From: Gammaproteobacteria bacterium
Lineage (GTDB): Bacteria > Pseudomonadota > Gammaproteobacteria > Ga0077536
DNA: 64,000 nucleotides
Reading direction: 5' to 3'
NCBI GenBank assembly: GCA_021773835.1
Contig: JAJFJQ010000028.1
Location: 496,001 to 560,000, forward strand
The notes under the pieces are model-generated. The model did no database searches and had not been told where the DNA came from. It saw only the letters and a list, made by a program, of their open reading frames with translations. The position numbers and the translations under genes were made by a program. This document shows positions 2,193 through 18,468 of the stretch, one piece after another. Every line of letters starts with the position of its first letter. Positions within the stretch are counted from its first letter, which is position 1.

Positions 2193-2672
2193 ATGAAACA
2201 TCGTATTTCACTGATGATCCCGATCATGATATTGGCCATTACGGTCCACGCCGGCGCCTTTGCCAGCACCCGTCTTATCGTCCTCAATGAGGTCCTGGAT
2301 GCCACGACTGACGTCGATCACAGCGTGCCACTGTACCTTTCACGACTTGGTAGTTATTACGCGGAGTTATATCTTGAGCCTGGGGTCGTGATCGATATCG
2401 AACGCACGGTCCCGCTTGATCTTGCATTTACTGTTTCGTTTCTACGTCGCGAAGAGCTCGTGCTATCGAAAGAGGTCGCGATATCGCTTGAGCCGGGACA
2501 GGACGTCGCAACCCTGTTTTATCTCCATTCGCCCTACGATTTACCGCAACGCAAAGGCCTGGACGTCGTGGTCAATTTCCATGACGTCGATCCGCACTTC
2601 AAAGAATACTATGAAGCCGTGCGTCTACAACTAACGCGCAAAGCACAACTTGCGCCAAGGTTTATCCGCTAG
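2193..2672 (+). CDS. Hypothetical exported protein
   Basis: Unrecognised 159-residue protein. Residues 1-24 form a signal peptide (KHR, a hydrophobic stretch MIPIMILAITVHAGA, cleavage near AFAS), so the mature part is likely periplasmic. The remainder is rich in beta-type segments (VIDIERTVPLDLAFTVSF) with no cysteine and no known motif. A strong Shine-Dalgarno AAGGAGG precedes the ATG, which supports it as a real gene. It converges with the DUF937-like gene at 2681 with an 8 nt gap, and no terminator fits between them. Function unknown. Confidence 0.7.
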   Translation: MKHRISLMIPIMILAITVHAGAFASTRLIVLNEVLDATTDVDHSVPLYLSRLGSYYAELYLEPGVVIDIERTVPLDLAFTVSFLRREELVLSKEVAISLEPGQDVATLFYLHSPYDLPQRKGLDVVVNFHDVDPHFKEYYEAVRLQLTRKAQLAPRFIR

Positions 2673-2680
2673 GCGATCCT

Positions 2681-3103
2681 TTACTTCAGAAATTTCGAGG
2701 CCATTCCAAGCAGTCCGCTGCTGCCGCCGACGGCGTCAAGCAGACCGCCACCCTTGCTATTGCTGTCGATCAACTCTGGCAGCATACCGGCGAGACCATC
2801 AGTTGCGGTCGATGGATCGAGATTCAGATTCGATGCAAAGTTGCCGACTTCCGACTCCCCAAATAGGTCCATAATTTGCTGCGGCGAGATCCCACCGTTA
2901 GTGCCATCGCCAAGCCAAGATTGCGCCAGAGAAGCCAAACCGCCGCCATCGAGCTTTGATATGATCGAGCCGAGATCGATATCGCCGCTGCTATTGCCAA
3001 GCAAACCGCCGAGGGCTTTACCCACCATACCTTCGCTGAGTCCGCCGGCGCCGCCGCCAAGCTTTTGCATGAATATCTGCGTTGCCATCCCCATTAGGTC
3101 CAT
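2681..3103 (-). CDS. DUF937 / YidB-like protein
   Basis: Small 140-residue Gly/Leu-rich protein. It shows the YidB/DUF937 pattern: LGGGAGGLSEGMVGKALGGL, then a repeated SIISKLDGGGLASLAQSWLGDGTNGGISPQQIMDLFG block, in which the Gly-Leu-Ala-SWLG..N..IS..Q...LFG run is the family signature (compare YidB of E. coli). The molecular role of the family is poorly defined. No signal peptide or membrane segment is evident. AGAGAGA lies upstream of the ATG. It ends 8 nt from the exported protein on the opposite strand. Confidence 0.75.
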   Translation of the reverse strand: MDLMGMATQIFMQKLGGGAGGLSEGMVGKALGGLLGNSSGDIDLGSIISKLDGGGLASLAQSWLGDGTNGGISPQQIMDLFGESEVGNFASNLNLDPSTATDGLAGMLPELIDSNSKGGGLLDAVGGSSGLLGMASKFLK

Positions 3104-3138
3104 TGCGAGTCTCTCTGCTATCTGATTGTGAAATGATT

Positions 3139-3912
3139 CTACACCAGACCAGGATGGCCGCCAGATCCACCATCAACAGTGATGATGGAACCGGTGGTGT
3201 AGGTGGATGCGTCGCTGGCTAGGTATAGCGCCGCACCGGCGATCTCAGTCGGTTCGCCGCCGCGTTGCAGCGGTATCGCGTCCTTCGCCAATGCGGTGAA
3301 TCGTTCCATATCCCACGCCTTGGAAATATCGGTCAAAAAGGGCCCGGCCATGATCGCGTTGACCCGTACCTTTGGGGCATATGCATGTGCGAACGAACGT
3401 GTGATGGCGTTCAGGCCCGCCTTCGCTGCGCCATAGGGTTCGGCCGCCGGGCTCGGTGTGATGGCACCGGTGCTGGTGATGTTGATGATGCTGCCACCGT
3501 TTCCTGCGGCCATGCGCTTGCCGACCAGTGCGCTGAGTCTAAACGGTCCTTTGAGATTGACCCCGATCACTTTATCGAACAGCTCTTCGGAGATTTCGTC
3601 TAATGAGTCATATAGGGGTGACATGCCTGCGTTGTTAACCAAAATGTCGATGCGACCGAATGCTGCGTATGCCGTTTCGACGAGAGTGTCGAGCGCATCC
3701 CATTTGCCAACATGACAGGCCACCGGTAACGCGCGACGGCCAAGCGCTTCAATTTCTTTTGCCGTCGCTTCGCATTGCTCAAGCTTGCGGCTTGCGATGA
3801 TTACATCCGCGCCGTGCGCGGCGAACGCGAGTGCCATTTGTCGACCCAAGCCACGACTCCCGCCGGTAATCAACGCGATTCGATCGCTAAGATCAAAGTT
3901 AATTTTTGTCAT
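3139..3912 (-). CDS. SDR family NAD(P)-dependent oxidoreductase
   Basis: Classical short-chain dehydrogenase of 257 residues. The cofactor loop ALITGGSRGLGRQ is near residues 13-25, NNAG near 91, the catalytic Ser in NITSTGAITPSPAA and the YxxxK pair in YGAAKAGLN, ending with TGSIITVDGGSGG. The Thr-Gly-x3-Gly-x-Gly loop with a following Arg suggests NADP(H) is possible. It starts 2 nt after the stop of the rhodanese gene, so the two form an operon. Substrate is not predictable; the gluconate 5-dehydrogenase / 3-oxoacyl reductase-like subfamily is the closest general shape. Confidence 0.9.
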   Translation of the reverse strand: MTKINFDLSDRIALITGGSRGLGRQMALAFAAHGADVIIASRKLEQCEATAKEIEALGRRALPVACHVGKWDALDTLVETAYAAFGRIDILVNNAGMSPLYDSLDEISEELFDKVIGVNLKGPFRLSALVGKRMAAGNGGSIINITSTGAITPSPAAEPYGAAKAGLNAITRSFAHAYAPKVRVNAIMAGPFLTDISKAWDMERFTALAKDAIPLQRGGEPTEIAGAALYLASDASTYTTGSIITVDGGSGGHPGLV

Positions 3913-7216: not shown

Positions 7217-7249
7217 GACGGAATTCGAGCGCAGGGGTTACTAAATTTG

Positions 7250-10138
7250 GTGGACTCGGCATTTACTGCTGGTCAACGTTGGATCAGTAATACCGAGTCG
7301 GAACTCGGTCTCGGCATTGTCGTCGAATACGCCGATCGACGAGTAACTTTAAGTTTCCCAGCTGCAGGCGAGCGGCGCGTTTATGCGAGCGACAATGCGC
7401 CGCTAAGCCGCGTGATGTATGAAGTCGGCGAAACAATTAGAAGCGCGGACGGTGTTGCGCTCCGGGTCACCGAGCGCCACGAGGCCAACGGTTGCTACAT
7501 CTATGGCGGCACCGCTGAAGACGGTAGCGAGGGGATCCTGCCGGAGCTCGACCTCGATAGTTTCGTTCAGTTTAGTCGACCGCTCGATCGCCTCTTCGCC
7601 GGCCAGATCGACAAGAACAATAGCTTTCTTTTGCGCGCCGAATCGCTGCGTCTACAACACCGACACCAACAATCACAGGCTTACGGCCTCGTCGGCCCTC
7701 GGGTGCAGTTGTTACCTCATCAATTTTATATCGCAAACCAAGTCGCAGCGCGTCACCACCCACGAGTCTTATTGGCCGATGAGGTTGGTCTCGGAAAAAC
7801 CATAGAAGCGGGCTTGATCTTGCACCAACGGCTGATGAGTGGTCGCGCCGACCGCGTGTTGATTGTGGTCCCCGATAGCCTGATCCATCAATGGTTAGTA
7901 GAGATGTTGAGGCGCTTCAACCTGCACTTCACCATCCTCGATGAAGAGACCTGCGTCGCGATCGAAGAGCGCGATGAGGACGCAGAAGAAGACATCGACG
8001 CCGAGTTTGAGAACCCCTTTGACAGCGCCCAACTCATTTTGATTGGGCTGTCGCTATTGGTTGAACACCCAGAGCGCCAGGCGCAGGCCTTGGCCTCACA
8101 ATGGGATTTGATGGTTGTCGATGAAGCCCATCATTTAAGTTGGAATGAGCAACAAGTTAGCCCAGCCTATCGCGCAATGGAGGCGCTCTCACAGGCGGCA
8201 TCGGGACTCGTGTTGATCACCGCGACGCCGGAGCAACTCGGGGTCGAGGGACACTTCGCCCGGCTACGCCTACTCGATCCGGATCGTTATCACGACTTAC
8301 ATGAATTTCGTGCCGAGGAAGACAATTACCGACCGATAGCAGAGCTCGTCGGAGAATTACAAGATACTGCAGCGATCGAATCAATTCCCAACGATGCGGT
8401 TCTACAGCGTTCTCTCGGTGAGTACCTAGGGCCGGCTAAGGTCGACGAAATTAGCACGGCGGATCTGCCGCATAGAAAGGTGTTAATTTCCGAAGCGATT
8501 AAAAACCTTCTCGATCGTCATGGCACTGGTCGCGTCTTGTATCGCAATTGCCGCGACACGGTACAAGGTTTCCCCGAGCGTAAAGTTTTTCCCTATCCGC
8601 TCGTAGCCCCGGCCGAATATTTGGCCAGAAGTGTCAATACAGCACCCGCTGATCTGCTTAACCCAGAGGTCTTGCTGGGAGAAGCATGGCTCACGCTTGA
8701 CCCGAGAGTCGAATGGCTGGACGCATGGTTGCACGAGCGTCGTGAACAAAAAACCTTGGTGATATGCGCTCAAGCAGCAACAGCGATCGCTTTGGAAGAG
8801 CACCTAAGAGTGCGACGCGGGATCCGAACGGCCGTGTTCCATGAAGGACTAAACCTGGTTGCCCGGGACCGAGCTGCCGCCTACTTTGCCGACGAACAAG
8901 AAAACGCAGAAGCACTCGTGTGTTCCGAAATTGGCAGCGAGGGACGAAATTTTCAATTTGCCCATAATTTAGTGTTGTTCGATATTCCGCTGAATCCTGA
9001 CCTCCTGGAACAACGGATCGGGCGCCTGGATCGTATCGGCCAACGGAATATTGTGCAGATACACGTGCCCTACTATGTAGCCAGCGCCGCCGAGGTGCTT
9101 TTCAAGTGGTACGACGAAGGCCTAGACGCGTTTGAGGAGGTCTTTTCTGCCGGTCGAGTGTTGGCTGAGCAATTTGGAGACGGGTTGAGATCTGCTATTA
9201 GCGATCCGTCGAATGAAGCTGCTCGCGATGCGCTCATCCAGGTTACCCGCGAACAAGCGGCGCTAACGCGTGAAGCGCTGCGCCATGGCCGTGACCGGCT
9301 GCTCGAACTCAATTCTTTTGACGAAGCCGAGGCATCCGAGATCATCGAAGCGGTGGCGGAGTCCAGCCGGAAACTCGAACTAGCAGACTACATGGATGGC
9401 GTGTTCGACTTTTTCGGCGTCGAACAGCAAACACATGGGTCGCTCAGCGTCATCGTGCATCCTGGGGATCATATGCTGTGCCACAATTTCCCCGGTCTCC
9501 CGGAGGGTGGGGTAACCGGAACCTATGACCGTGCCGAGGCCCTATCAAAGGAAGACATGCACTTTCTGACCTGGGAGCACCCTATGGTGACCGGTGCCAT
9601 GGACATGATGCTCTCCGGAGAATTTGGCAATGCAACCCTGTGCGCGCTGAAGGCGCCGTTTTTGAAGCCCGGGACGCTATACCTCGAAGCGATCTTCGTT
9701 GTGAGCTGTGCTGCGCCACGCTATCTGCAGCTGCCACGCTACATTCCACAGGCGACGATCCGCGTGGTAATTGATAGGGAACATAAGGATCTTACCAATG
9801 TGTTGACTCAGGAACGGATCAACGCGGTAGTCGAACCGATTAAAAAACGAGTCGCACACGAAGTTGCAAAGCATGCTCGGTCTGAGATCAATGCCATGGC
9901 CAATCGTGCAACCGAGATCGCGGAGACCCAACTTGTTCCGCTAGTCGATATTGCGCGCCACGACATTGATGCGGAGCAACGCGCGGAACTCGAACGGCTG
10001 CAAGCATTAGCAGCCGTCAATCCGAACATACGGACCGAGGAAATTGAATTTCGAAAGGACTTTTCAGCCGAACTGGTTGCACACATTGAGCACGCGCAGT
10101 TGCGGTTGGATGCGGTTCGCGTTGGGCTGGCTACATAA
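7250..10138 (+). CDS. rapA: RNA polymerase-associated ATPase RapA
   Basis: SWI2/SNF2-type ATPase that binds RNA polymerase and recycles it after termination. The 962-residue protein follows E. coli RapA closely end to end: FTAGQRWISNTESELGLG (Tudor-like N-terminal domain), RVLLADEVGLGKTIEAG (Walker A, near residue 175), VVDEAHHL (DEAH box), LLITATPEQLGVEGHFARLR, SEIGSEGRNFQFAHN and PDLLEQRIGRLDRIGQ (helicase motifs IV-VI), and AVNPNIRTEEIEF near the end. The start is GTG 7250, directly after an in-frame TTG. It stands alone. RapA is largely confined to Gammaproteobacteria, which helps place the organism. Confidence 0.97.
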   Translation: MDSAFTAGQRWISNTESELGLGIVVEYADRRVTLSFPAAGERRVYASDNAPLSRVMYEVGETIRSADGVALRVTERHEANGCYIYGGTAEDGSEGILPELDLDSFVQFSRPLDRLFAGQIDKNNSFLLRAESLRLQHRHQQSQAYGLVGPRVQLLPHQFYIANQVAARHHPRVLLADEVGLGKTIEAGLILHQRLMSGRADRVLIVVPDSLIHQWLVEMLRRFNLHFTILDEETCVAIEERDEDAEEDIDAEFENPFDSAQLILIGLSLLVEHPERQAQALASQWDLMVVDEAHHLSWNEQQVSPAYRAMEALSQAASGLVLITATPEQLGVEGHFARLRLLDPDRYHDLHEFRAEEDNYRPIAELVGELQDTAAIESIPNDAVLQRSLGEYLGPAKVDEISTADLPHRKVLISEAIKNLLDRHGTGRVLYRNCRDTVQGFPERKVFPYPLVAPAEYLARSVNTAPADLLNPEVLLGEAWLTLDPRVEWLDAWLHERREQKTLVICAQAATAIALEEHLRVRRGIRTAVFHEGLNLVARDRAAAYFADEQENAEALVCSEIGSEGRNFQFAHNLVLFDIPLNPDLLEQRIGRLDRIGQRNIVQIHVPYYVASAAEVLFKWYDEGLDAFEEVFSAGRVLAEQFGDGLRSAISDPSNEAARDALIQVTREQAALTREALRHGRDRLLELNSFDEAEASEIIEAVAESSRKLELADYMDGVFDFFGVEQQTHGSLSVIVHPGDHMLCHNFPGLPEGGVTGTYDRAEALSKEDMHFLTWEHPMVTGAMDMMLSGEFGNATLCALKAPFLKPGTLYLEAIFVVSCAAPRYLQLPRYIPQATIRVVIDREHKDLTNVLTQERINAVVEPIKKRVAHEVAKHARSEINAMANRATEIAETQLVPLVDIARHDIDAEQRAELERLQALAAVNPNIRTEEIEFRKDFSAELVAHIEHAQLRLDAVRVGLAT

Positions 10139-10153
10139 GCTGCCTGCCTCGCC

Positions 10154-10474
10154 TTAGTTTTGCTCAAGCACAGTTGCCGGAGCGCTTGAAGTGTTGTTCG
10201 AGCCCGTGGCTGCCTCGCCGTCCGCAAGTTCGACCGCTCGTTTATCTTTATACTCGCGATAAGTTTCTCGTTGTCCGCCCAATGCTTGTGGGTCGCAGCG
10301 TTCTCGATGTGTGCGCGCATCGCCTTCGAAGTGGGATCGATCGCAGTCATATTGTTTCGCCGTTTCAAACATCGATTCCAATAGCTGATCTTTGGAACAC
10401 CCGACGGCGGATAGTGAAATCGCTACGGCAATAATCATCGCGGCGATTATTCTGACGCTCTGTATCAACATCAT
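10154..10474 (-). CDS. Small putative lipoprotein
   Basis: Unrecognised 106-residue protein with a lipoprotein signal peptide: a hydrophobic helix RIIAAMIIAVAISLSAVGC with the lipobox Cys at residue 26. The mature part is hydrophilic and charged (KQYDCDRSHFEGDARTHRERC) with two further cysteines and a low-complexity Ser/Thr/Ala C-terminus. I chose ATG 10474 because GAGGAAG lies 6 nt before it; the longer frame to 10606 lacks a ribosome site. It converges with rapA 15 nt away. It is the last gene of the minus-strand accessory block. Function unknown. Confidence 0.65.
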   Translation of the reverse strand: MMLIQSVRIIAAMIIAVAISLSAVGCSKDQLLESMFETAKQYDCDRSHFEGDARTHRERCDPQALGGQRETYREYKDKRAVELADGEAATGSNNTSSAPATVLEQN

Positions 10475-10634
10475 TTGCTTCCTCGCTTCACAATAGTTTA
10501 TCGCAATGAGATTTGAGTTATCCAACTTGGTGTGGTGTGAGAAAAGTGATTCTGCATTTGGCAGCCGTTTTGTGTCGACATTCTGCGGTAACAGCGTGCT
10601 AGCCATCCGTCAGAACGCCCCGTCCTTCACCGAT

Positions 10635-10976
10635 TTAGCGGCCCTTGCTTGCCGCTTCAGTATCGAGGCGATCCAAGGCACGTCGGTTCAGAACTAAAAA
10701 CACCGTTCCCCACACAGCCACGGATACAAAGATGATAATTGATATCACGACAGGATCGCCGTAAGCAAAATTGAATCTATCGACTAATACGTAGTTTAAA
10801 CCCAGTGCGGTAAATACAGTCGCGGCGAAGATATCCGACCACAGTAACCAGTATCGTCTCGTGGTACAGAATTTAAACGTAGTGGAACAGTGCGGGCAAT
10901 TATGTTTGCCAGAAATGGACTTCAAATACCGTGACCAGCTTAGCTCCACCAGCGATTTGCAAGTCGGGCAAATCAT
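10635..10976 (-). CDS. Small zinc-ribbon membrane protein
   Basis: Unrecognised 113-residue protein. The N-terminus carries a CPTC...CPHC pair (residues 3-6 and 27-30) that should form a treble-clef or zinc-ribbon site. Two membrane helices follow (about 44-62 and 75-95), then a short basic tail. The family resembles the many small 'zinc ribbon plus two helices' proteins found in accessory DNA; no function is known. It is A+T-rich relative to rapA and sits in the minus-strand block. A hairpin (10991-11010) lies 15 nt upstream of its start. Confidence 0.6.
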   Translation of the reverse strand: MICPTCKSLVELSWSRYLKSISGKHNCPHCSTTFKFCTTRRYWLLWSDIFAATVFTALGLNYVLVDRFNFAYGDPVVISIIIFVSVAVWGTVFLVLNRRALDRLDTEAASKGR

Positions 10977-10990
10977 ACGAGGTTAGGTCG

Positions 10991-11010
10991 CCGCGACTGC
11001 ATCGTCGCGG
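10991..11010. repeat. Perfect 7-bp inverted repeat
   Basis: CCGCGAC, a 6-nt loop and GTCGCGG, between the MAPEG-like gene and the zinc-ribbon gene. A GTTAGGT heptamer (10982-10988) lies next to it. There is no T-run, so it is not a standard terminator on either strand; it might be an attenuating hairpin or part of a decayed recombination site. Confidence 0.4.
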
Positions 11011-11147
11011 TTCGTGTGCGGCGGGTTGAAGCCAAAAATCCCAAGTTTCATATTAGTGATCAGCCAGAATTTCGCCTATCGTTGACTGACCGCGGTTCGT
11101 GGCCAGTTACAGTGGGTTCCGTAACGCGGAGATAGCTTCTCGGCGAA

Positions 11148-11582
11148 TTATAAATTCATCCCCGAGCCATCCAAACTCAAATACGAGCGCACCCAAATTA
11201 TTACCAAAACAACATTGCTGGTGGCGAAGATAAGTAGTCTATGGACCACATTGTTGTACGTAAGATGAACCAAACTATGCAGAATTCTGCAACCGACATA
11301 TGCCCAAGCTAAGTAAAGCGTTAAATGGTTCGTCCCCTGCGTTACGTACAGCATTAGGCATGCGACGTAAAACAGAAGTGGCAGTTCTAAAAGATTCATG
11401 TAGTTCCGGTTCGGAATGCTCACGACACCCGGGACATTGTCCGACTCCCCAAGCTTGAAATCGTCGACTACGACTTCCTTTCGGAATGCTGCTTTGAAGC
11501 GCTGATACGGGATCAGCAGCAAAACAAGTAGGGTCCATCCGGCAAGAGCCGTCATTGGATATAGTGTTAACGTTTGATCCAT
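11148..11582 (-). CDS. MAPEG family membrane protein
   Basis: Integral membrane protein of 144 residues, four helices, MAPEG fold (membrane-associated proteins in eicosanoid and glutathione metabolism). Seen: a first helix ALAGWTLLVLLLIPYQRF, then the family segment RNYMNLLELPLLFYVACLMLYV (N..E..P.F), and WAYVGCRILHSLVHLTYNNV (R..HS..H). Bacterial members are mostly uncharacterised, some with glutathione transferase activity. ATG 11582 is preceded by AGAGGAT; the longer frame to 11681 would overlap the next gene and lacks such a site. In the cassette-like block; function beyond the family is unknown. Confidence 0.82.
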   Translation of the reverse strand: MDQTLTLYPMTALAGWTLLVLLLIPYQRFKAAFRKEVVVDDFKLGESDNVPGVVSIPNRNYMNLLELPLLFYVACLMLYVTQGTNHLTLYLAWAYVGCRILHSLVHLTYNNVVHRLLIFATSNVVLVIIWVRSYLSLDGSGMNL

Positions 11583-11620
11583 CCGAACGATCCTCTGGTT
11601 TCGATGCTTGTAGTGGTCCG

Positions 11621-11983
11621 TTACACGTCGGCAACTATTTGTCGCCCCGTTGTTTCGACCTTGTCTAGCGACGTATCCCAATTCGCAAGCTCAGATCGGT
11701 CGATCTCTTCAGCGGAGGCATCTCGTAGAAGCTCCTTCAGATCGGTTCTTAGTTTTTCGATCGCCCAACCGAACGGGTCTGCATGCACGATCGGAACTAA
11801 TGGGTTTTTTCGGTAAGAGAAAGCGGTGTGATAGTGGGGTTTGTTTTCGAAACAATCGAACCGCAATATCTCCTCTATGCTTCCATCTACCGGTCCGAAC
11901 ACATGTATTGAGAGTCCACGGTCCGTTTCCAGATCTCGGAACTCTAGGGAGATTTTGAGTCTTCCGATGTCGTAGTTGTGCAT
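11621..11983 (-). CDS. Hypothetical protein
   Basis: Unrecognised 120-residue soluble acidic protein with no signal peptide or membrane helix. It begins MHNYDIGRLKISLEFRDLET and has an antiparallel-strand look (ISLEFRD, LSIHVFGPV, ILRFDCFE) followed by two helices (WAIEKLRTDLKELLRDASA). Shine-Dalgarno AAGGAG lies 10 nt before the ATG. The stop TAA overlaps a plus-strand GTTA, as is common where a cassette gene runs into its recombination site, but the heptamer (GTGTAAC) is off consensus. Function unknown. Confidence 0.6.
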   Translation of the reverse strand: MHNYDIGRLKISLEFRDLETDRGLSIHVFGPVDGSIEEILRFDCFENKPHYHTAFSYRKNPLVPIVHADPFGWAIEKLRTDLKELLRDASAEEIDRSELANWDTSLDKVETTGRQIVADV

Positions 11984-12031
11984 TAGCTACGCTCCTTTCG
12001 CTGTTTACGTTTACGAAGCGGCCGTTAACAG

Positions 12032-12075
12032 TAACGTCTGGCATGGAATCGAATGAAGTATTCGATCGAGAGTTA
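12032..12075. repeat. Imperfect stem-loop; possible decayed attC
   Basis: Between genes 11621 and 12105. GTAAC (12032) pairs with GTTAC (12071-12075), and ATCGAAT-gaagt-ATTCGAT (12048-12066) forms a perfect inner stem. The AAC/GTT ends and the nested arms resemble a short attC site, but the outer heptamers do not match RYYYAAC/GTTRRRY, so this is a weak candidate only. Confidence 0.3.
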
Positions 12076-12104
12076 CCGTCCTCAAGTCGATAGCTTTCGT
12101 ACCA

Positions 12105-12551
12105 CTAGACCTTCTGTACCCGCATCACCGGATGCCGATGTGCAATTTTTTCATATTCTTCCTCTCGGCTTCCAGGTTGCACCGCAAAAAAGCGCTGTAC
12201 TGTCTTGTTGTAACGTGACAGATACACACGCAAAACGTCAATTTTCTGAGGTCCCTCTATTTCATCAACGCGATATAGCGCGTTGTCAGCTCCTCGCTTT
12301 AACCATAGCTCACCGCTACTTCTAATGTTATGTATCCACTGCGTTTCGCCTCTCGGTGAGACCAAAAAGGTTTCTCCGTCGATATAAGTCAGATTGACGG
12401 GTGTCGAATAGCGTTTACCAGTTTTCCGGCCAAGGGCCGAGAGCTGGTAATTATGGCTTAGCCCGATCCCGCGCCCTGCGAAAAAACCGAAAACTTTATT
12501 GAACCAGCGTTCGGCTATTGTCGGTGTAACGATTTCTGGATCCTTTGACAT
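12105..12551 (-). CDS. Deazaflavin-dependent nitroreductase (DDN) family protein
   Basis: Split beta-barrel protein of 148 residues from the F420/flavin-binding DDN family. The signature is visible: LSALGRKTGKRYSTPVNLTYIDGETFLVSPRGETQWIHNIRSSGELWLKRG (G..SG..R..P......G....S.G.....W..N). Classical members use coenzyme F420, but many proteobacterial relatives occur in genomes not known to make it, so the cofactor is uncertain. It begins 2 nt after the stop of the upstream gene (12554), with GAGG before the ATG, so the two are probably co-translated and may travel as one cassette. Confidence 0.82.
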   Translation of the reverse strand: MSKDPEIVTPTIAERWFNKVFGFFAGRGIGLSHNYQLSALGRKTGKRYSTPVNLTYIDGETFLVSPRGETQWIHNIRSSGELWLKRGADNALYRVDEIEGPQKIDVLRVYLSRYNKTVQRFFAVQPGSREEEYEKIAHRHPVMRVQKV

Positions 12552-12553
12552 AG

Positions 12554-12967
12554 TTAATCAACCTCATCGTCCATCCATCCTTTGAAAGGCACCCATCGCA
12601 AATATCTGTCAGTTGAACCGTCCGGTTGAAGCCGTAGAAATCTCCTGCCTTCTTTCCGGTAGAAATCGCCACATTTGCATTGTGATTCATATTCCCCGTT
12701 CCTATGGCGTACGTACTTGTAGTCGGAATCAATGCACTTACCATTTCTACAACGAGGTCGCCTCGGGATCCCTCCCCAAAAAAAGTTCTCTAGATAAGAT
12801 AATGCATTCAATGCCGTTGGCGGGAGTACTCCGGCAAGTACGACCCCAATAACCAACCCGCCCCATGAAAACATGTCGTAGCCCCAAGACGCAGCGAACC
12901 ATATCGACGTTGCCCAAGCCAGGACTACTAGTAGTTCAATCAGTGTCGCGCCTCGTATGCGACTCAT
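12554..12967 (-). CDS. Hypothetical membrane protein with Cys cluster
   Basis: Unrecognised 137-residue protein. Two hydrophobic helices (LIELLVVLAWATSIWFAAS, then GGLVIGVVLAGVLPPTAL) are followed by a basic soluble tail with CRNGKC and QCKCG, a possible metal site. A GTG at 13012 would extend it, but that falls inside the attC-like site; ATG 12967 lies 11 nt after the site's outer GTTAGGC heptamer, the spacing expected of a cassette gene, so I chose it. No strong Shine-Dalgarno is visible. Paired with the DDN gene downstream. Confidence 0.6.
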   Translation of the reverse strand: MSRIRGATLIELLVVLAWATSIWFAASWGYDMFSWGGLVIGVVLAGVLPPTALNALSYLENFFWGGIPRRPRCRNGKCIDSDYKYVRHRNGEYESQCKCGDFYRKEGRRFLRLQPDGSTDRYLRWVPFKGWMDDEVD

Positions 12968-12978
12968 GAAATTATGCA

Positions 12979-13089
12979 GCCTAACGTCGAGTTGAGTCGC
13001 ACGTGACAGCACAATTTAGTGGAGTGACAGTCTTCATGGGCGGAAGAAAAGTCCGCTGCAACGCGCCAGACTCCAAGCGCTGGTTAGGT
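12979..13089 (-). repeat. attC-like recombination site (integron cassette)
   Basis: 111-nt imperfect palindrome between two minus-strand genes. On the minus strand it opens with ACCTAAC (RYYYAAC) and closes with GTTAGGC (GTTRRRY). Inside these, TTGGAGTC in one arm pairs with TTGAGTC of the other, leaving one unpaired G, as in attC L boxes, and a further hairpin (GCGGA...TCCGC, about 13041-13055) lies in the centre. The TAA stop of gene 13084 falls within the first heptamer and the next gene starts 11 nt after the last one. The arms also resemble known sites such as that of aadA7. Orientation agrees with the genes. Confidence 0.72.
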
Positions 13090-13521
13090 TGAAACCGTAA
13101 GATAGACATAGACGGTAGCGCCGATCGAGCTCAGGACGCTTCGTACTGCATGTAAATGACCCCATTTTTTTTGTAGACCTAGCGTCTCTATTGATGTGCG
13201 ATCGCGATCAGGATCTAGCAGCAGCTTATTCGTTGGCATGATTCCTATAAATGTAAACGGGATAACTAAGAATATTAACAGCGCTCCGACAAGCCACAGT
13301 GATCTCCCCCCGTTTAATGTGACAGCAATGCCAGCAATCGTGGCGACGATGGCTAGAGAGACCTGCATTGTGGTCGCGCGATGGTAGCTGGGTCCGAATA
13401 CCGTCGCAGCCAATTCCGTGCCGCATTCCAATCTCGCGGGGTGCTCCGCAACGTTAATATATATCGCCGCACCTGCAAACATCGAGCATGACAGCGTCGC
13501 AAGTATTTCTAGGATTCCCAT
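13084..13521 (-). CDS. DUF1772-like membrane protein
   Basis: Integral membrane protein of 145 residues with four helices. Seen: first helix with SCSMFAGAAIYINVAEHPARL, helices near 55-72 and 75-98, and a final helix after KKWGHLHAVRSVLSSIGATVYVYL; the 'W..LH..R' segment is typical of DUF1772 (anthrone oxygenase-like) proteins. Catalytic role is unproven for most members. Its stop codon overlaps the attC-like site downstream; upstream only 42 nt separate it from the gene at 13564, with no full site between them. Confidence 0.72.
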   Translation of the reverse strand: MGILEILATLSCSMFAGAAIYINVAEHPARLECGTELAATVFGPSYHRATTMQVSLAIVATIAGIAVTLNGGRSLWLVGALLIFLVIPFTFIGIMPTNKLLLDPDRDRTSIETLGLQKKWGHLHAVRSVLSSIGATVYVYLTVST

Positions 13522-13563
13522 TGCTGCTCTTCCTATTGGTAAGCGATCAGCTCGAGCGATTTG

Positions 13564-14082
13564 TTAAGGCGTATTTTCGTTTGATGATTTACTAATTGTC
13601 GGGATCGTTCCCGATTGATCGATATTCGACATTTGCTCCTCCATATAAGTAACGAACTCTTTCGAGAAGCGACTCTTATCTCTTGACCACCACTCCTTCA
13701 CACCAGGGAGGCTGCTCACATACAGTGGCATCTCATAGGCGAGTTTCTCCCACATGGCTTCGTCCAGTTGCCCATTCAGGTGTTGATGGTAAGCAAAGTC
13801 GAAGTGATTATAGTAGGCGAAAAACCAGGTACTAAATCGAAAGCGCTCTTCGTCTGACATCGCGTCAGGCTCGTAACTTCCTTTCATGGCAATTGCCGCT
13901 AATTCGCCATTGTTAGCAAACATATAATTAGCGTCGGAATTCGCGGCGATTAAATTTTGGGTCGTTTGATATCGCGTCGCTTTTGTATTCTGTCGGATTT
14001 GCACCGCCACGTAACCAAGCGATACCACAACGGCGATTGCGCCAACAATCTCCGCTATCCCTATTACTGCATCCCAGTTCAT
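13564..14082 (-). CDS. MNWD-type small membrane-anchored protein, paralogue 1
   Basis: 172-residue protein of unknown function. One N-terminal helix (AEIVGAIAVVVSLGYVAVQI) is followed by IRQNTKATR and a helical cytoplasmic domain (EERFRFSTWFFAYYNHFDFAYHQHLNGQLDE...WEKL). It is paralogous with the genes at 15671 and 16181: all start MNW(D/E), share ExVGAxAVVxxLxYxxxQxR, and have an acidic-aromatic domain of similar plan. Such proteins are common in marine bacterial genomes without assigned role (recollection, not searched). The gene end overlaps a near-consensus core (CCTTAAC on the minus strand). Confidence 0.72.
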   Translation of the reverse strand: MNWDAVIGIAEIVGAIAVVVSLGYVAVQIRQNTKATRYQTTQNLIAANSDANYMFANNGELAAIAMKGSYEPDAMSDEERFRFSTWFFAYYNHFDFAYHQHLNGQLDEAMWEKLAYEMPLYVSSLPGVKEWWSRDKSRFSKEFVTYMEEQMSNIDQSGTIPTISKSSNENTP

Positions 14083-14349
14083 CGTTCCGTTAGCTGCTGC
14101 ATGTTTCTAAAAACCTAAAAACGGGGTTAAAAACGGGGTCGGAGTAAGTTATGGGGGTCGAATAAGCTGTCCCTAATAACAACGGAGATTAAATTAGAAG
14201 GTAAGGGCTAATTTTAGGACGAATAATGACAAGGACACCGAGTAATTACATCGCGGTTATGCCGTGTCATGCGGTGCAGCGCGCACTCGACACGCAAGCG
14301 GTCGAACCGTTGCGATGAGGTAATTGACTCCGACCCCTTTTTCCTTTTT
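14083..14349. repeat. REP-like inverted-repeat element in a gene gap
   Basis: The gap between genes 13564 and 14350 holds GGGGTCGGAGT (14135-14145) and its exact reverse complement ACTCCGACCCC (14327-14337), each flanked by an A- or T-rich run, with about 180 nt between. A tandem of the 12-mer TAAAAACGGGGT starts near 14116. This layout is like the GGGGTCxGAGTxAATT palindromes that accompany REP-associated transposases or form small non-autonomous elements. No transposase frame lies inside. T-rich tracts outside the right arm (14338-14349) may also help terminate transcripts reading plus. Confidence 0.6.
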
Positions 14350-14817
14350 CTATGCCCCTTTCGCCATTTCTTCCATTTTCTTTAACGTCTCCGGTGACCA
14401 AACTTGGCTCGAGTCTAGCCACCCGTCAAATGCTATTGCGTCGTCCGGAAGTTCAAACCATGGTTGTTTACTTCGCGTGAAAATATGATATGTCGGTGGC
14501 GCCAATGTCGGATCGTTTAGTGTCCCACCCCTAACTGCAATGATCGGAAGTTCCACAAAGTGGTATTTGTTCCAGATGACTGTGGCACATTTCGAGCACG
14601 CATGGGCATCGTATCCAGAACCGCTTGGTGTGGGGTTCGTGACCGTAGATATGTTGCCTTCAATCTCAAAATCTGCTTCTGCGACACCGAGTAATATCAC
14701 GAACGCAGAGCCCGAATATCGTTGGCAATCGGCACAATGACAAGCATGGACAAATAACGGTTGATCTCTAATCTCATAATGGACTTCACCACAAATGCAA
14801 CTACCGATTAACGCCAT
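14350..14817 (-). CDS. GFA (glutathione-dependent formaldehyde-activating) family protein
   Basis: 155-residue zinc protein of the GFA/CENP-V family. Zinc ligands are visible: CIC (residues 7-9), CHCADC (26-31) and HACSKC in the middle, with the family segment G...FVILLG and the WNKYHF / RGGTLND region that follows. Some members add glutathione to formaldehyde, but most are of unknown substrate. AGGAGGAA directly precedes the ATG. The gene is in the accessory block; its 3' side abuts the REP-like element. Confidence 0.88.
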   Translation of the reverse strand: MALIGSCICGEVHYEIRDQPLFVHACHCADCQRYSGSAFVILLGVAEADFEIEGNISTVTNPTPSGSGYDAHACSKCATVIWNKYHFVELPIIAVRGGTLNDPTLAPPTYHIFTRSKQPWFELPDDAIAFDGWLDSSQVWSPETLKKMEEMAKGA

Positions 14818-15670
14818 TTGTTCCTCCTGTAATATTCCGGTATGGGAATTTCACTCATGTTTAGGATTTCTGATGTGGCCTAATGGTCAGCTTCAGCATC
14901 TTAATACTCATTGAGGCCTCTTCGGGGACGTTCAGGCTCAACCATCAAACTGAACGTCCTATATGTTAGAGGGTTTCTAGACTCGACGTCCACAAGGGGA
15001 CCTCGATGAGCGTTAGCAGCACAACTCGTCAACATTATTGCGGTATGAGTTTGTACGCGAAGACCATGTACGTGTCCATCAATAATGCGTACAGCGAAAT
15101 CGTTCTGCATCGCAATATAAAAAGTGAATCACATAGTCTAGCCGCCGCGGTCGAACCCAATCGTAAAGACCTCGACATCGGCGTCCAGCGTTTGTTCGTC
15201 GCAGCTTTGATTCCTGTGTCGCACCTTTTCTTGCGTCTTTCAGCCGTGATATTGGCTCGCCGACAGGTGCGCCCTGGAAAATATTCCCTTCGACCTCGGT
15301 CATGCACTTTAGGTGAATGCGATCCTTGGCGGTGAGGAGAACGAATCCAAGGATGGGGGAGGTAGAGCAACACAGGAGCAGCGGCCGAGAATGACCGCAT
15401 TGAATTCAAGAAAATTACGCGAGTACTCAAAGGCGGTATTGTCCCTCAGATCTACGCATATCGCTCCAAGATGTGTGCTACTGCTCGCGCAGCGGAAGCG
15501 TCCTTGGGGTGTTACCGCCATTGTATTTTGATCCGTAGTCCGCCCCTGTTACAGGACCCTTACTAGCGCACGCAACACTGCAGGACAACCGCTAAAGCTC
15601 GACGGGTGCTTTTCGATATTGATTTCAGGTAGCCCCATAGGAGTTAGGCAGCACCAGACCGCTTGTAATT
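14818..15670. other. Gene-poor stretch within the accessory block
   Basis: About 850 nt with only overlapping short frames on both strands (for example minus 15079-15303 and 14901-15110) that have no ribosome site, no recognisable domain and implausible composition. It may hold a decayed gene: three minus-strand frames follow one another without overlap continuity. A GTTAGGC heptamer at 15643-15649, 22 nt past the stop of gene 15671, looks like one end of a cassette site, but no matching partner with paired arms was found. A palindrome CCTGTTACAGG lies near 15545. Confidence 0.45.
14926..14959. repeat. Perfect 10-bp inverted repeat
   Basis: GGACGTTCAG, a 14-nt loop and CTGAACGTCC, lying about 110 nt upstream of the GFA gene in the gene-poor gap. 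There is no T-run after it on either strand. It could be an operator-like palindrome or a remnant of a mobile element. Confidence 0.45.
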
Positions 15671-16162
15671 CTAACCGTCGAATACATCTCCTACCCTCTT
15701 GAAGTCGTCGGCTGGTTGGAGCCCCTCGACAAACTTTTGAAAATCGGGTGTAAAGATGTCTCGTCGAACCTTCCAATAATGCTGCGCTCCGGGAGCTGTC
15801 GCGTATGATGCGATGAAACGGCGCCAACCCTCCCACGCATCCTCTCCTAGCGTTCCATGCAGGTAGTGATAGTGAACATTCTCGAAGGCTTTAAAAAGAT
15901 CGTACATCATGAACGCGAAATCGAGTCTCTGCTGCTCACTTAGTGTTGCGTAGTCCTCAAGCCCTTGTGAGAAAACTTCCGTTAAGCCGGAAGCAAGCAT
16001 TTGCCGCGTGAATTGACGAAAATCACGTGTTGTTCCGTCATGGGTGGCCACTCGAACTTGACGTGTATTTTGACGTATCTGAATTGCCACATAGACGAGC
16101 GAAAGTACTACCGCCACGGCGCCCACGGCTTCTGAGATTGTTCTAACAGCTTCCCAGTTCAC
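15671..16162 (-). CDS. MNWE-type small membrane-anchored protein, paralogue 2
   Basis: 163-residue protein of unknown function in the same family as 13564 and 16181. The N-terminal helix (SEAVGAVAVVLSLVYVAIQI) is followed by RQNTRQVRVATHDGTTRDFR and a helical domain (LDFAFMMYDLFKAFENVHYHYLHGTLGEDAWEGWRRFI). The last helix segment, HYWKVRRDIFTPDFQKFVEGL, corresponds to WWSRDKSRFSKEFVTYMEEQ in paralogue 1. Start is GTG with GGAG 9 nt upstream. GTTAGAC (minus strand) lies 17 nt before the start. Confidence 0.72.
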   Translation of the reverse strand: MNWEAVRTISEAVGAVAVVLSLVYVAIQIRQNTRQVRVATHDGTTRDFRQFTRQMLASGLTEVFSQGLEDYATLSEQQRLDFAFMMYDLFKAFENVHYHYLHGTLGEDAWEGWRRFIASYATAPGAQHYWKVRRDIFTPDFQKFVEGLQPADDFKRVGDVFDG

Positions 16163-16180
16163 GAATATCTCCGGTGCCGT

Positions 16181-16726
16181 CTAACGTTGATCCACGGATT
16201 CGCCGGTACCTTCATTTTCTTTAGAGCTCCGTCTACTAGATTGTTTTTCAATTAGCGTTTGAACGTCTGCGACAAACTCCTCGGAGATATTTGCCAAGAA
16301 TGGCATCATTCGGATCCATTCTTCATGCGCTTTCGGATTCGCACTAATTACCGCAGCAACGTTGAGTGCATCGTTTGATTCTTTATGTCCAGAAGCAGAA
16401 TAGAGGCCGCTACGATAAGCAGTTACTGCAACGTAAAACAGTTCTTCAAAATAGGTCGAAAAGATAAGACTCTCTTGTGCGGTAAGAGCTTCAGAACCAC
16501 GTGCCTTGATCAAAACGGCAGATACATCAGCGGTATCAAGTAGTGACCCACGCCATCGCGAGTACATTTCCATTACCGCGTTCGTAGCTTGTTGCGAGGC
16601 GTGCTTAGATGTTTCCTCTGTCGCAATTCGAGTCAGCCGAGTTTGAATCGAAAGATAAACTAGCGTGATAACTACAGCGATAGCTCCAACAATTTCTGCA
16701 AGTGTTCCTAGTGCTTCCCAGTTCAC
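16181..16726 (-). CDS. MNWE-type small membrane-anchored protein, paralogue 3
   Basis: 181-residue protein, the most divergent of the three MNW(D/E) paralogues. The N-terminal helix is AEIVGAIAVVITLVYLSIQT; the soluble part has SKHASQQATNAVMEMYSRW, FSTYFEELFYVAVTAYRSGLYS and EEWIRMMPFLANISEEFVADV. The C-terminal 20 residues are low-complexity and charged. Start is GTG 17 nt downstream of a GTTAGGT heptamer (16743-16749), and its own stop codon is the TAG of a GTTAGAC heptamer (16179-16185). Function unknown. Confidence 0.7.
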   Translation of the reverse strand: MNWEALGTLAEIVGAIAVVITLVYLSIQTRLTRIATEETSKHASQQATNAVMEMYSRWRGSLLDTADVSAVLIKARGSEALTAQESLIFSTYFEELFYVAVTAYRSGLYSASGHKESNDALNVAAVISANPKAHEEWIRMMPFLANISEEFVADVQTLIEKQSSRRSSKENEGTGESVDQR

Positions 16727-17211
16727 GAGTTCATCTCTAGCAACCTAACGCCTATTAGTGGACCTAAAGGCCGGTTTGTTATTGGATAAATAGGCCGGGC
16801 TAATTTTCATCGATCAACAATATCTACATCATCGTGGTTAATGGTACTGCGTGTACCACTAAAATTCATAACATTGTGCTGGAGCAAAGCAATGCTTAGG
16901 GCTACTGCGCTGCAAGAAGATTGGCGCGATACATCGCTGTTTTGCGTTGCTGTTGGATTTGGGCAGTGTCCTGAAGTAGTGCACTGTGCGGTCAGCGCTA
17001 ATGGCATTGCTCGTGATATGACACCTTTGAAACTTGACGCCCAGAACTAAACAAAACTGTCCCAAACACGCGCGCGATTGTACTTGGGCTACGGCGAGAA
17101 CGAATCTAGACCTCGGCTTGGATGCGCGCTCCATGGTCGCTACGTTGACCCAATCTGGCAGTCGCTTCACCATGTGGCGCTTAGTTTCAAGTTTCTGTTG
17201 AGGAGATCACG
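16727..17211. other. Boundary region between accessory block and LLM gene
   Basis: 485 nt without a convincing gene. Near the left end GTTAGGT (minus strand, 16743-16749) is followed outward by GCCTATT/AATAGGC arms (16750-16756 with 16788-16794), a possible degenerate attC. If the block were a complete integron, attI and a divergent intI would be expected here on the plus strand; the only plus frame (16841-17050, 69 codons) has no recombinase feature. The stretch 17040-17200 should hold the promoter of the LLM gene, but no good hexamer pair is visible. Confidence 0.5.
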
Positions 17212-18468
17212 ATGCGCTTTGGCGTGTTTTACGAATTGCAGTTGCCGCGACCATGGGCCGACGGTGATGAACACCGATTGTTTAAAGATGCCCTGGAACA
17301 GGTTGCGTTGGCCGACCGACTGGGTTTCGACTACGCGTGGCAGGTCGAGCACCATTTTCTCGACGAGTATTCACATTCCTCGGCACCGGAAGTTTTTCTC
17401 GCCGCCGCTGCAGTGCAAACCAAAAATATCCGCATCGGCCATGGTATTCGTCAGGTTATCCCCAACTACAATCACCCCGCGCGTACGGCTGAGGGGCTTG
17501 CGACCTTGGACTTGATTTCCGATGGCCGAGTCGAGTTCGGTATTGGTGAGGGCGCAACCCGGCTTGAGCTCGGTGCGTTTGGAATCTCGGCAAAGACCAA
17601 ACGCGCACGGGCACTCGAGGCTGCGGAGCAGATCTGCAACATGATGGTATTGACGCCCTATCCGGGTTTCGACGGCGAGGGGTTTTCCATGCCGTGCCGC
17701 AACGTATTGCCGAAGCCGTTGCAGACCCCGCATCCACCTTTGTGGATGGCATGCACGAATCGCGAGACGATCAAAGTTGCAGCGCAGAATGGCATCGGTG
17801 CGTTAGCGTTTTCGTTTTTGGACCCAGATGAAGCGCGCACCTGGTCGAAGATCTATTACGACATAATAAAGAGCGATCAATGCGTACCCTTGGGCTGGTC
17901 GGTGAACGCCAATCTGGCCATGGTCTCAGCATTTTCGATGCATGAAGATCGTTCCGAGGCGATCCGTCGCGGGCAGGATCATTTCGAGTTTTTCCGTTAT
18001 TCGCAGCAAAAGTTGGTTGCCGATGACTTTGTCCCAGGCCATAGCAACATGTGGGAGGAGTTTTTGGAAAAACGCGGCGATGCATCGGATCGCCTGATCA
18101 AGGCCGCGCTGGCGCGGGGCGAGTTTGATGGGGCCGGGATCGGTACACCAGATGATATGCGTGCCCATATAGCCAACCTGCAAGAGGCTGGGGTCGATCA
18201 AGTCGTATTCCTGCAGCAAGCAGGACGCAATTCGCACGAGAATATTTGCGCATCGCTCGAACTATTCGCAGACACCGTGATGCCGCAATTCGTCGCCGAT
18301 GTCGAGGAGCGTGAAGCGAATAAGCAAACGGAACTCGCACCTTATATTGAGGCAGCATTGGCGCGTAGACAGCCTATGCAAGCGCTAGCCGAGGCGGATG
18401 TCCCGGTCGTTAAAGCGGCGGTGAAGGCTTCTGTGCCATCGCATCGGACCGCAGCCGGCAAAACCTAG
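17212..18468 (+). CDS. LLM class flavin-dependent oxidoreductase (bacterial luciferase-like)
   Basis: 418-residue member of the luciferase-like monooxygenase superfamily (TIM barrel, reduced FMN). Seen: FGVFYELQLPRPW at the start, the family segment LADRLGFDYAWQVEHHFLDEYSHSSAPEVFLAAAAVQTKNIRIGHGI, and LDLISDGRVEFGIGEGATRLELGAFG. It uses FMNH2 and O2 to hydroxylate an unknown substrate. GAGGAG precedes the ATG. The C-terminal 60 residues are Ala/Arg-rich and poorly conserved in type. It converges with pbpC. A second LLM gene at 47190 begins similarly (EVGAFYLP...EHHF) but is only distantly alike. Confidence 0.88.
   Translation: MRFGVFYELQLPRPWADGDEHRLFKDALEQVALADRLGFDYAWQVEHHFLDEYSHSSAPEVFLAAAAVQTKNIRIGHGIRQVIPNYNHPARTAEGLATLDLISDGRVEFGIGEGATRLELGAFGISAKTKRARALEAAEQICNMMVLTPYPGFDGEGFSMPCRNVLPKPLQTPHPPLWMACTNRETIKVAAQNGIGALAFSFLDPDEARTWSKIYYDIIKSDQCVPLGWSVNANLAMVSAFSMHEDRSEAIRRGQDHFEFFRYSQQKLVADDFVPGHSNMWEEFLEKRGDASDRLIKAALARGEFDGAGIGTPDDMRAHIANLQEAGVDQVVFLQQAGRNSHENICASLELFADTVMPQFVADVEEREANKQTELAPYIEAALARRQPMQALAEADVPVVKAAVKASVPSHRTAAGKT

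Follow-up and report, generated by a model that had tools for sequence, protein, structure and literature searches.

Probable relic of a chromosomal integron cassette array with a single intact attC site in a gammaproteobacterial genome

The stretch of DNA analysed here (the window, 64 kb) comprises bases 496001–560000 of contig C21 (628 kb) in the genome assembly of a Gammaproteobacteria bacterium (6.14 Mb, 74 contigs). It contains a block of 11 minus-strand open reading frames (ORFs) flanked by two plus-strand genes, encoding RapA (7247–10138) and a luciferase-like monooxygenase (17212–18468). As initially described, the block is lower in GC, with values per kilobase of 46.6–51.1% across 10–17 kb versus 50–60% in nearly all of the remaining window. 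The original prediction, made from the letters alone, had read 10139–16803 as a decayed block of integron gene cassettes without an integrase. Our analysis indicates that part of it, approximately 12979–16749, is very probably the relic of a chromosomal integron gene-cassette array, in which one intact attC site, remnants of others and an insertion sequence (IS) relic are found.

The intact attC site

The intact attC spans 111 nt on the minus strand (12979–13089), and its predicted anatomy was confirmed in detail. The R'' box ACCTAAC (13089–13083) and the R' box GTTAGGC (12985–12979) fit the consensus sequences RYYYAAC and GTTRRRY and pair at 6/7 positions. Between them, L'' (TTGGAGTC) pairs with L' (GACTCAA) and leaves a single extrahelical G on the L'' side (TTG-G-AGTC versus GACTCAA). 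The TAA stop codon of the gene at 13084–13521 lies inside R''. The next ATG (12967), 11 nt beyond R', opens an orphan gene (12554–12967, minus strand) that likely marks the start of the next cassette and for which no homologue was found in the other class genomes searched.

Two covariance models were used to score the site. The first (R1) was built from 36 aligned attC sites with strongly covarying pairs, taken from integron loci around intI in the organism's own family and in public genomes, the window site being left out. Searched over the 64 kb with filters off, R1 returned a single site, 12979–13089 read on the minus strand, at 46.2 bits (E = 5.5e-9; genome-wide E = 5.3e-7), where the original prediction had proposed such a search as its check. 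The runner-up in the window reached only 11.1 bits, and the antisense strand of the site scored 7.0 bits versus 46.2 for the sense strand. A second model (R2), drawing on the attC type native to this genome together with one relative, gave 46.1 bits (E = 8.4e-12). No weak site was found in the block by R2 besides 12979–13089, and the other gene junctions were at background under both models. False positives look rare, with no model match at E ≤ 0.001 in two same-genus genomes without a detected intI. Dinucleotide shuffling of the block predicts 0.005 structured sites of such quality per shuffle. Whole-site DNA similarity searches within the genome returned nothing significant beyond the site itself. 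Over its full 111 nt it aligns with an attC beside intI in a genome of another genus of the same family (G017). By every sequence test applied, 12979–13089 is a genuine attC.

Remnants of further sites and an IS1111-family relic

Truncated and interrupted sites were detected at other junctions of the block. A library of attC sites was scanned against the whole window on both strands; the intact site scored best and a half site second (44), with the next match at 36. This truncated attC (13539–13570, minus strand) retains the R''–L'' half and has lost the hairpin, L' and R'. It lies at the junction of genes 13564–14082 and 13084–13521, and the stop codon of the former falls within its R''. The best of 1500 control pieces scored 30. 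Across 13539–13566, the truncated site shares 25/28 nt with the corresponding R''–L'' portion of a C15 attC.

A second site has been split by a transposable element. The seemingly empty stretch 14822–15670 contains an internally deleted IS1111-family relic (14905–15640, plus strand; approximately 736 nt versus 1.6 kb for an intact copy), with 73–78% nucleotide identity to the intact IS on contig C16 (locus L194, 3420–5020). The transposase of the C16 copy, broken in the window, matches PF01548 and PF02371 above cut-off and is of the IS110/IS1111 DEDD type. Near both ends of the C16 element are subterminal inverted repeats (TGAGGCCCCC / GGGGGCCTCA), decayed in the window copy, and approximately 450 nt of non-coding sequence follows the transposase gene. 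In the window the relic sits between the heptamer GCCTAAC (15643–15649, minus strand) and an L'' remnant, and this heptamer is therefore the R'' box of the interrupted attC. It occupies the same position relative to the IS end as GTTAGGT at the intact C16 copy. The remnant on the other side (14878–14904, minus strand), which belongs to the gene at 15671–16162, was recognized by alignment with the attC/IS junctions of C16, C15, C63 and C9. It consists of L'' (AAGATGCTGAAGCTGACC) followed directly by the R'-like ATTAGGC, the hairpin being missing.

The insertion place of this element is fixed. On C16 and in the window, where both ends are seen, it separates the R'' from the L'' of an attC, and its L'' side is at the same attC place on C15, C63 and C9. 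Besides the window, four attC sites elsewhere in the genome thus hold a copy of the family. The positions noted for the element in attC include L193 (7934 to end), L198 (14814 to end), L191 (1–125) and L071 (15562), and a similar end is present in genome G001. Targeting of one attC end by IS1111-family elements is already known (PMC11187229). The group described there (ISKpn4, ISPst6) likewise combines a DEDD transposase, subterminal inverted repeats, a downstream non-coding region and insertion at one attC end; the likeness is one of description rather than sequence, and the window copy differs in being an internally deleted relic. Because contigs C15, C63 and C9 end inside the element, its multiple copies probably explain the broken assembly of the array.

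Isolated heptamers required more caution. In the block 14 bare heptamers were observed versus 12.7 ± 3.6 in dinucleotide shuffles, in agreement with the earlier estimate of about 13 by chance. Those at 15643, 16179 and 16743, to which the original prediction had given little weight for this reason, are nevertheless better supported than it held. In proven cassettes of the MNWEA gene family, the R' box lies approximately 15–18 nt ahead of the start codon. Of the window's three MNWEA paralogues, two show this arrangement, with an R' box 16 nt before a GTG start (chance approximately 3e-5). These boxes are GTTAGAC (16179–16185) ahead of paralogue 2 (15671–16162) and GTTAGGT (16743–16749) ahead of paralogue 3 (16181–16726), all on the minus strand; the latter box is likely the 5' boundary of the first cassette. 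Given the IS position and the R' spacing before paralogous genes, all three heptamers are probably true boxes. An L''-like 10-mer, GTGGATCAAC, directly precedes the 16179 heptamer, and the pair is suggestive of a collapsed attC. A scan for such collapsed sites (10-mer plus heptamer) gave too many chance matches for stand-alone use.

Arrays and cassette genes elsewhere in the genome

No integrase gene was found in the locus, as originally stated, whereas the genome as a whole does carry one. A full-length integron integrase (464 aa) is encoded on contig C4 (C4:1998–2939) and scored 472 bits against TIGR02249 (curated cut-off 265). No other above-cut-off match to this profile was obtained, and none on C21, so that intI is not adjacent to the window array. 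Approximately 55 attC sites were located on seven small contigs (C4, C9, C13, C15, C16, C17 and C57) and at the ends of C47, C63, C55 and C20, and isolated sites occur on C12, on C47 and in the window. The sedentary chromosomal integron on the seven small contigs shares with the window locus the 111-nt attC class, the MNWEA and GFA families and the attC-targeting IS. Its arrays hold many intact attC sites, and C4 also the integrase, whereas the window locus has one intact site.

Relatives of the window genes are among the cassettes of these arrays. MNWEA paralogue 1 (13564–14082, minus strand) has an N-terminal hydrophobic helix plus a helical domain and is predicted to be all-helical (mean pLDDT 91.6). 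No significant Pfam family was assigned to MNWEA and no convincing PDB match was found by fold search (best Foldseek E 0.56; best VIA Z 5.5, in the chance range for helical proteins). MNWEA proteins are small and helical, and probably membrane-anchored. The genome contains 28 full or near-full copies (three in the window, 25 elsewhere), 17 of which have an attC within 5 kb, although zones of this kind account for 1.6% of the genome. With contig C21 left out the count was 14/25. MNWEA genes thus recur as cassettes in this lineage. Paralogue 3 shares 48% identity with a copy adjoining the C12 attC. The GFA-like gene (PF04828; 14350–14817, minus strand) has a relative (34% identity) among attC sites on C57. 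The gene ahead of the intact site (13084–13521, minus strand) encodes an anthrone-oxygenase-like small membrane protein (PF08592, 54 bits) with homologues in 7/369 class genomes, this genome included. In G208 the homologue has an attC on either side (39.9 and 34.7 bits), and that in G063 is preceded by an attC of 25.3 bits.

An integrase and a large array elsewhere in the genome would also permit another origin, in which a small number of cassettes, or just one, were inserted by IntI at an ordinary chromosomal site (attG), the remainder of the block being native DNA of no relation to them. Such attG insertion is reported in PMC12444791 (citing Loot et al. 2024) and PMC12901181, and the single attC sites isolated on C12 and C47 also point in this direction. 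Such insertions share with the window an isolated chromosomal attC and an integrase located elsewhere. They differ in that the window has several decayed junctions; at least four bear attC boxes or remnants, and more than one cassette was therefore once present here. The canonical R' of the intact site, pairing with R'' at 6/7 positions, is also array-like rather than typical of a one-off attG junction. We therefore regard off-target insertion as improbable.

The array on C16 (L194) carries cassettes for a CAP12/Pycsar-type TIR protein (2525–3301), a Fic-domain protein (172–561) and a PIN-like DUF5615 protein (895–1215), and the living array may for this reason carry defence or toxin-antitoxin genes.

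Extent, probable origin and erosion of the block

Traces of cassette structure were confined to 12979–16749, to the exclusion of the left-hand part of the proposed block. The five small genes at 10154–12551 (minus strand; orphan, zinc-ribbon-like, MAPEG, DUF7700 and deazaflavin oxidoreductase-like) are on the same strand and of lower GC, and they include a patchy gene, DUF7700, which like the orphan at 12554–12967 is unmatched in the other class genomes searched. These properties would fit a cassette origin for all of 10139–16803. This wider reading is conceivable yet doubtful, since neither a whole nor a half attC was detected in 10154–12551 by R2 or the library scans, nor any R' box at cassette spacing, and a cassette origin of the left part is thus unproven.

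RapA and the luciferase-like gene were not adjacent in any relative examined, and the contigs of the closest relative end at both flanks; consequently no empty site could be defined. Gene order around the two flanking genes is rearranged between relatives, in contrast to the conserved synteny that the original prediction named as a result that would speak against it, and the block genes are patchily distributed among 369 class genomes. In the closest relative (L072, G026 contig C106) the contig ends 80 nt past RapA, and these last 80 nt include GGATCAACCTAAC, which recalls the L'' box of attC. The variable gene order, together with IS1111-family copies in several arrays that could recombine, would be compatible with relocation of a piece of the main integron by chromosomal rearrangement rather than with IntI acting in trans. 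No breakpoint repeat was identified, however, and the L'' of the window attC is unlike that of most main-array sites and common to a site in another genus. Relocation thus appears unlikely, if somewhat less so than off-target insertion.

Several observations weigh against an eroded array. Only one attC is intact, the left-hand genes show no attC trace, nor does the junction of the GFA-like gene with MNWEA paralogue 1, and no empty site could be defined. The candidate collapsed site before 16179 is, taken alone, within chance (2.8% of the null). Single-strand folding, proposed as a check in the original prediction, was uninformative as regards energy: the minimum-energy folds of both strands do form the R and L stems, but the fold energy is ordinary relative to shuffled sequences (z = +0.23 and −0.77) because the inner hairpin has drifted. 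Together with bare heptamers at chance frequency, this ordinary energy would suit an ordinary island of small genes with fortuitous attC-like features. That explanation is hardly credible, as it is contradicted by the model score and as both models concur with the half site, with the place of the IS and with the homologues found in cassettes. We consider an array relic very probable, and its decayed state is as originally predicted, with a half site, an IS-split site and R' boxes beside one intact attC.

The locus shares with attC clusters lacking intI (CALIN) a single orientation of cassette genes, the presence of attC and the absence of an integrase nearby. It differs in having one intact attC with the rest as remnants, and intI elsewhere in the genome. 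The IntegronFinder 2 default for a CALIN is two or more attC in a cluster (PMC9024848); with one intact site the locus is not a CALIN by this default. The most fitting name is an eroded array that retains a single intact attC.

IntI, a tyrosine recombinase, joins cassettes at folded attC sites. We infer that the array was assembled in this way from circular cassettes, possibly by the C4 IntI. At least five genes, all in the same orientation, are probably cassettes (the three MNWEA paralogues, the GFA-like gene and the anthrone-oxygenase-like gene), with a sixth (12554–12967) beginning after the intact site. Erosion of attC would have followed, leaving one intact, one cut to its R''–L'' half and one reduced to an R' box. 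Another would have been split by the attC-homing IS1111-family element and have lost its hairpin afterwards. The array is probably frozen. Since every resident cassette lacks a complete site on at least one side, excision should be blocked; gene 13084–13521, for example, has only a half site upstream and should not excise as a circle. The C4 IntI is predicted to be able to act still on 12979–13089, probably as an entry point for new cassettes.

Beside 111-nt sites, C57 and C16 carry short attC of 44, 45 and 56 nt (L195 1198–1241 and 2969–3013; L194 2466–2521) that resemble the long type with its hairpin deleted. These and the three hairpin-less window remnants would fit preferential deletion of the inner hairpin in attC outside the active array, with R and L boxes kept at one or both ends and cassettes frozen as chromosomal genes. 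We put this forward tentatively, and as a rule for the lineage it is rather unlikely. The find is of a known kind, and its usefulness lies in the three remnant types and in a decay series within one genome, from intact arrays through mixed decay (C63) to near-bare islands (C12, C41 and the window). It illustrates one possible route from mobile cassettes to settled chromosomal genes. Integron finders that require two intact attC overlook such islands, which hemi-attC sites, attC-homing IS ends and cassette-typical gene families can expose.

Further searches of the locus yielded no match, whether with Rfam across the window (Rfam may not hold attC), with the block as query against plasmid DNA, or with PADLOC defence models against ten block proteins. 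The stretch 14100–14345, which separates the GFA-like gene from MNWEA paralogue 1, has no copy among the loci examined. Its near-repeats (AAAAACGGGGT, GGGGTCGGAGT) resemble the termini of a transposon with an internal deletion.

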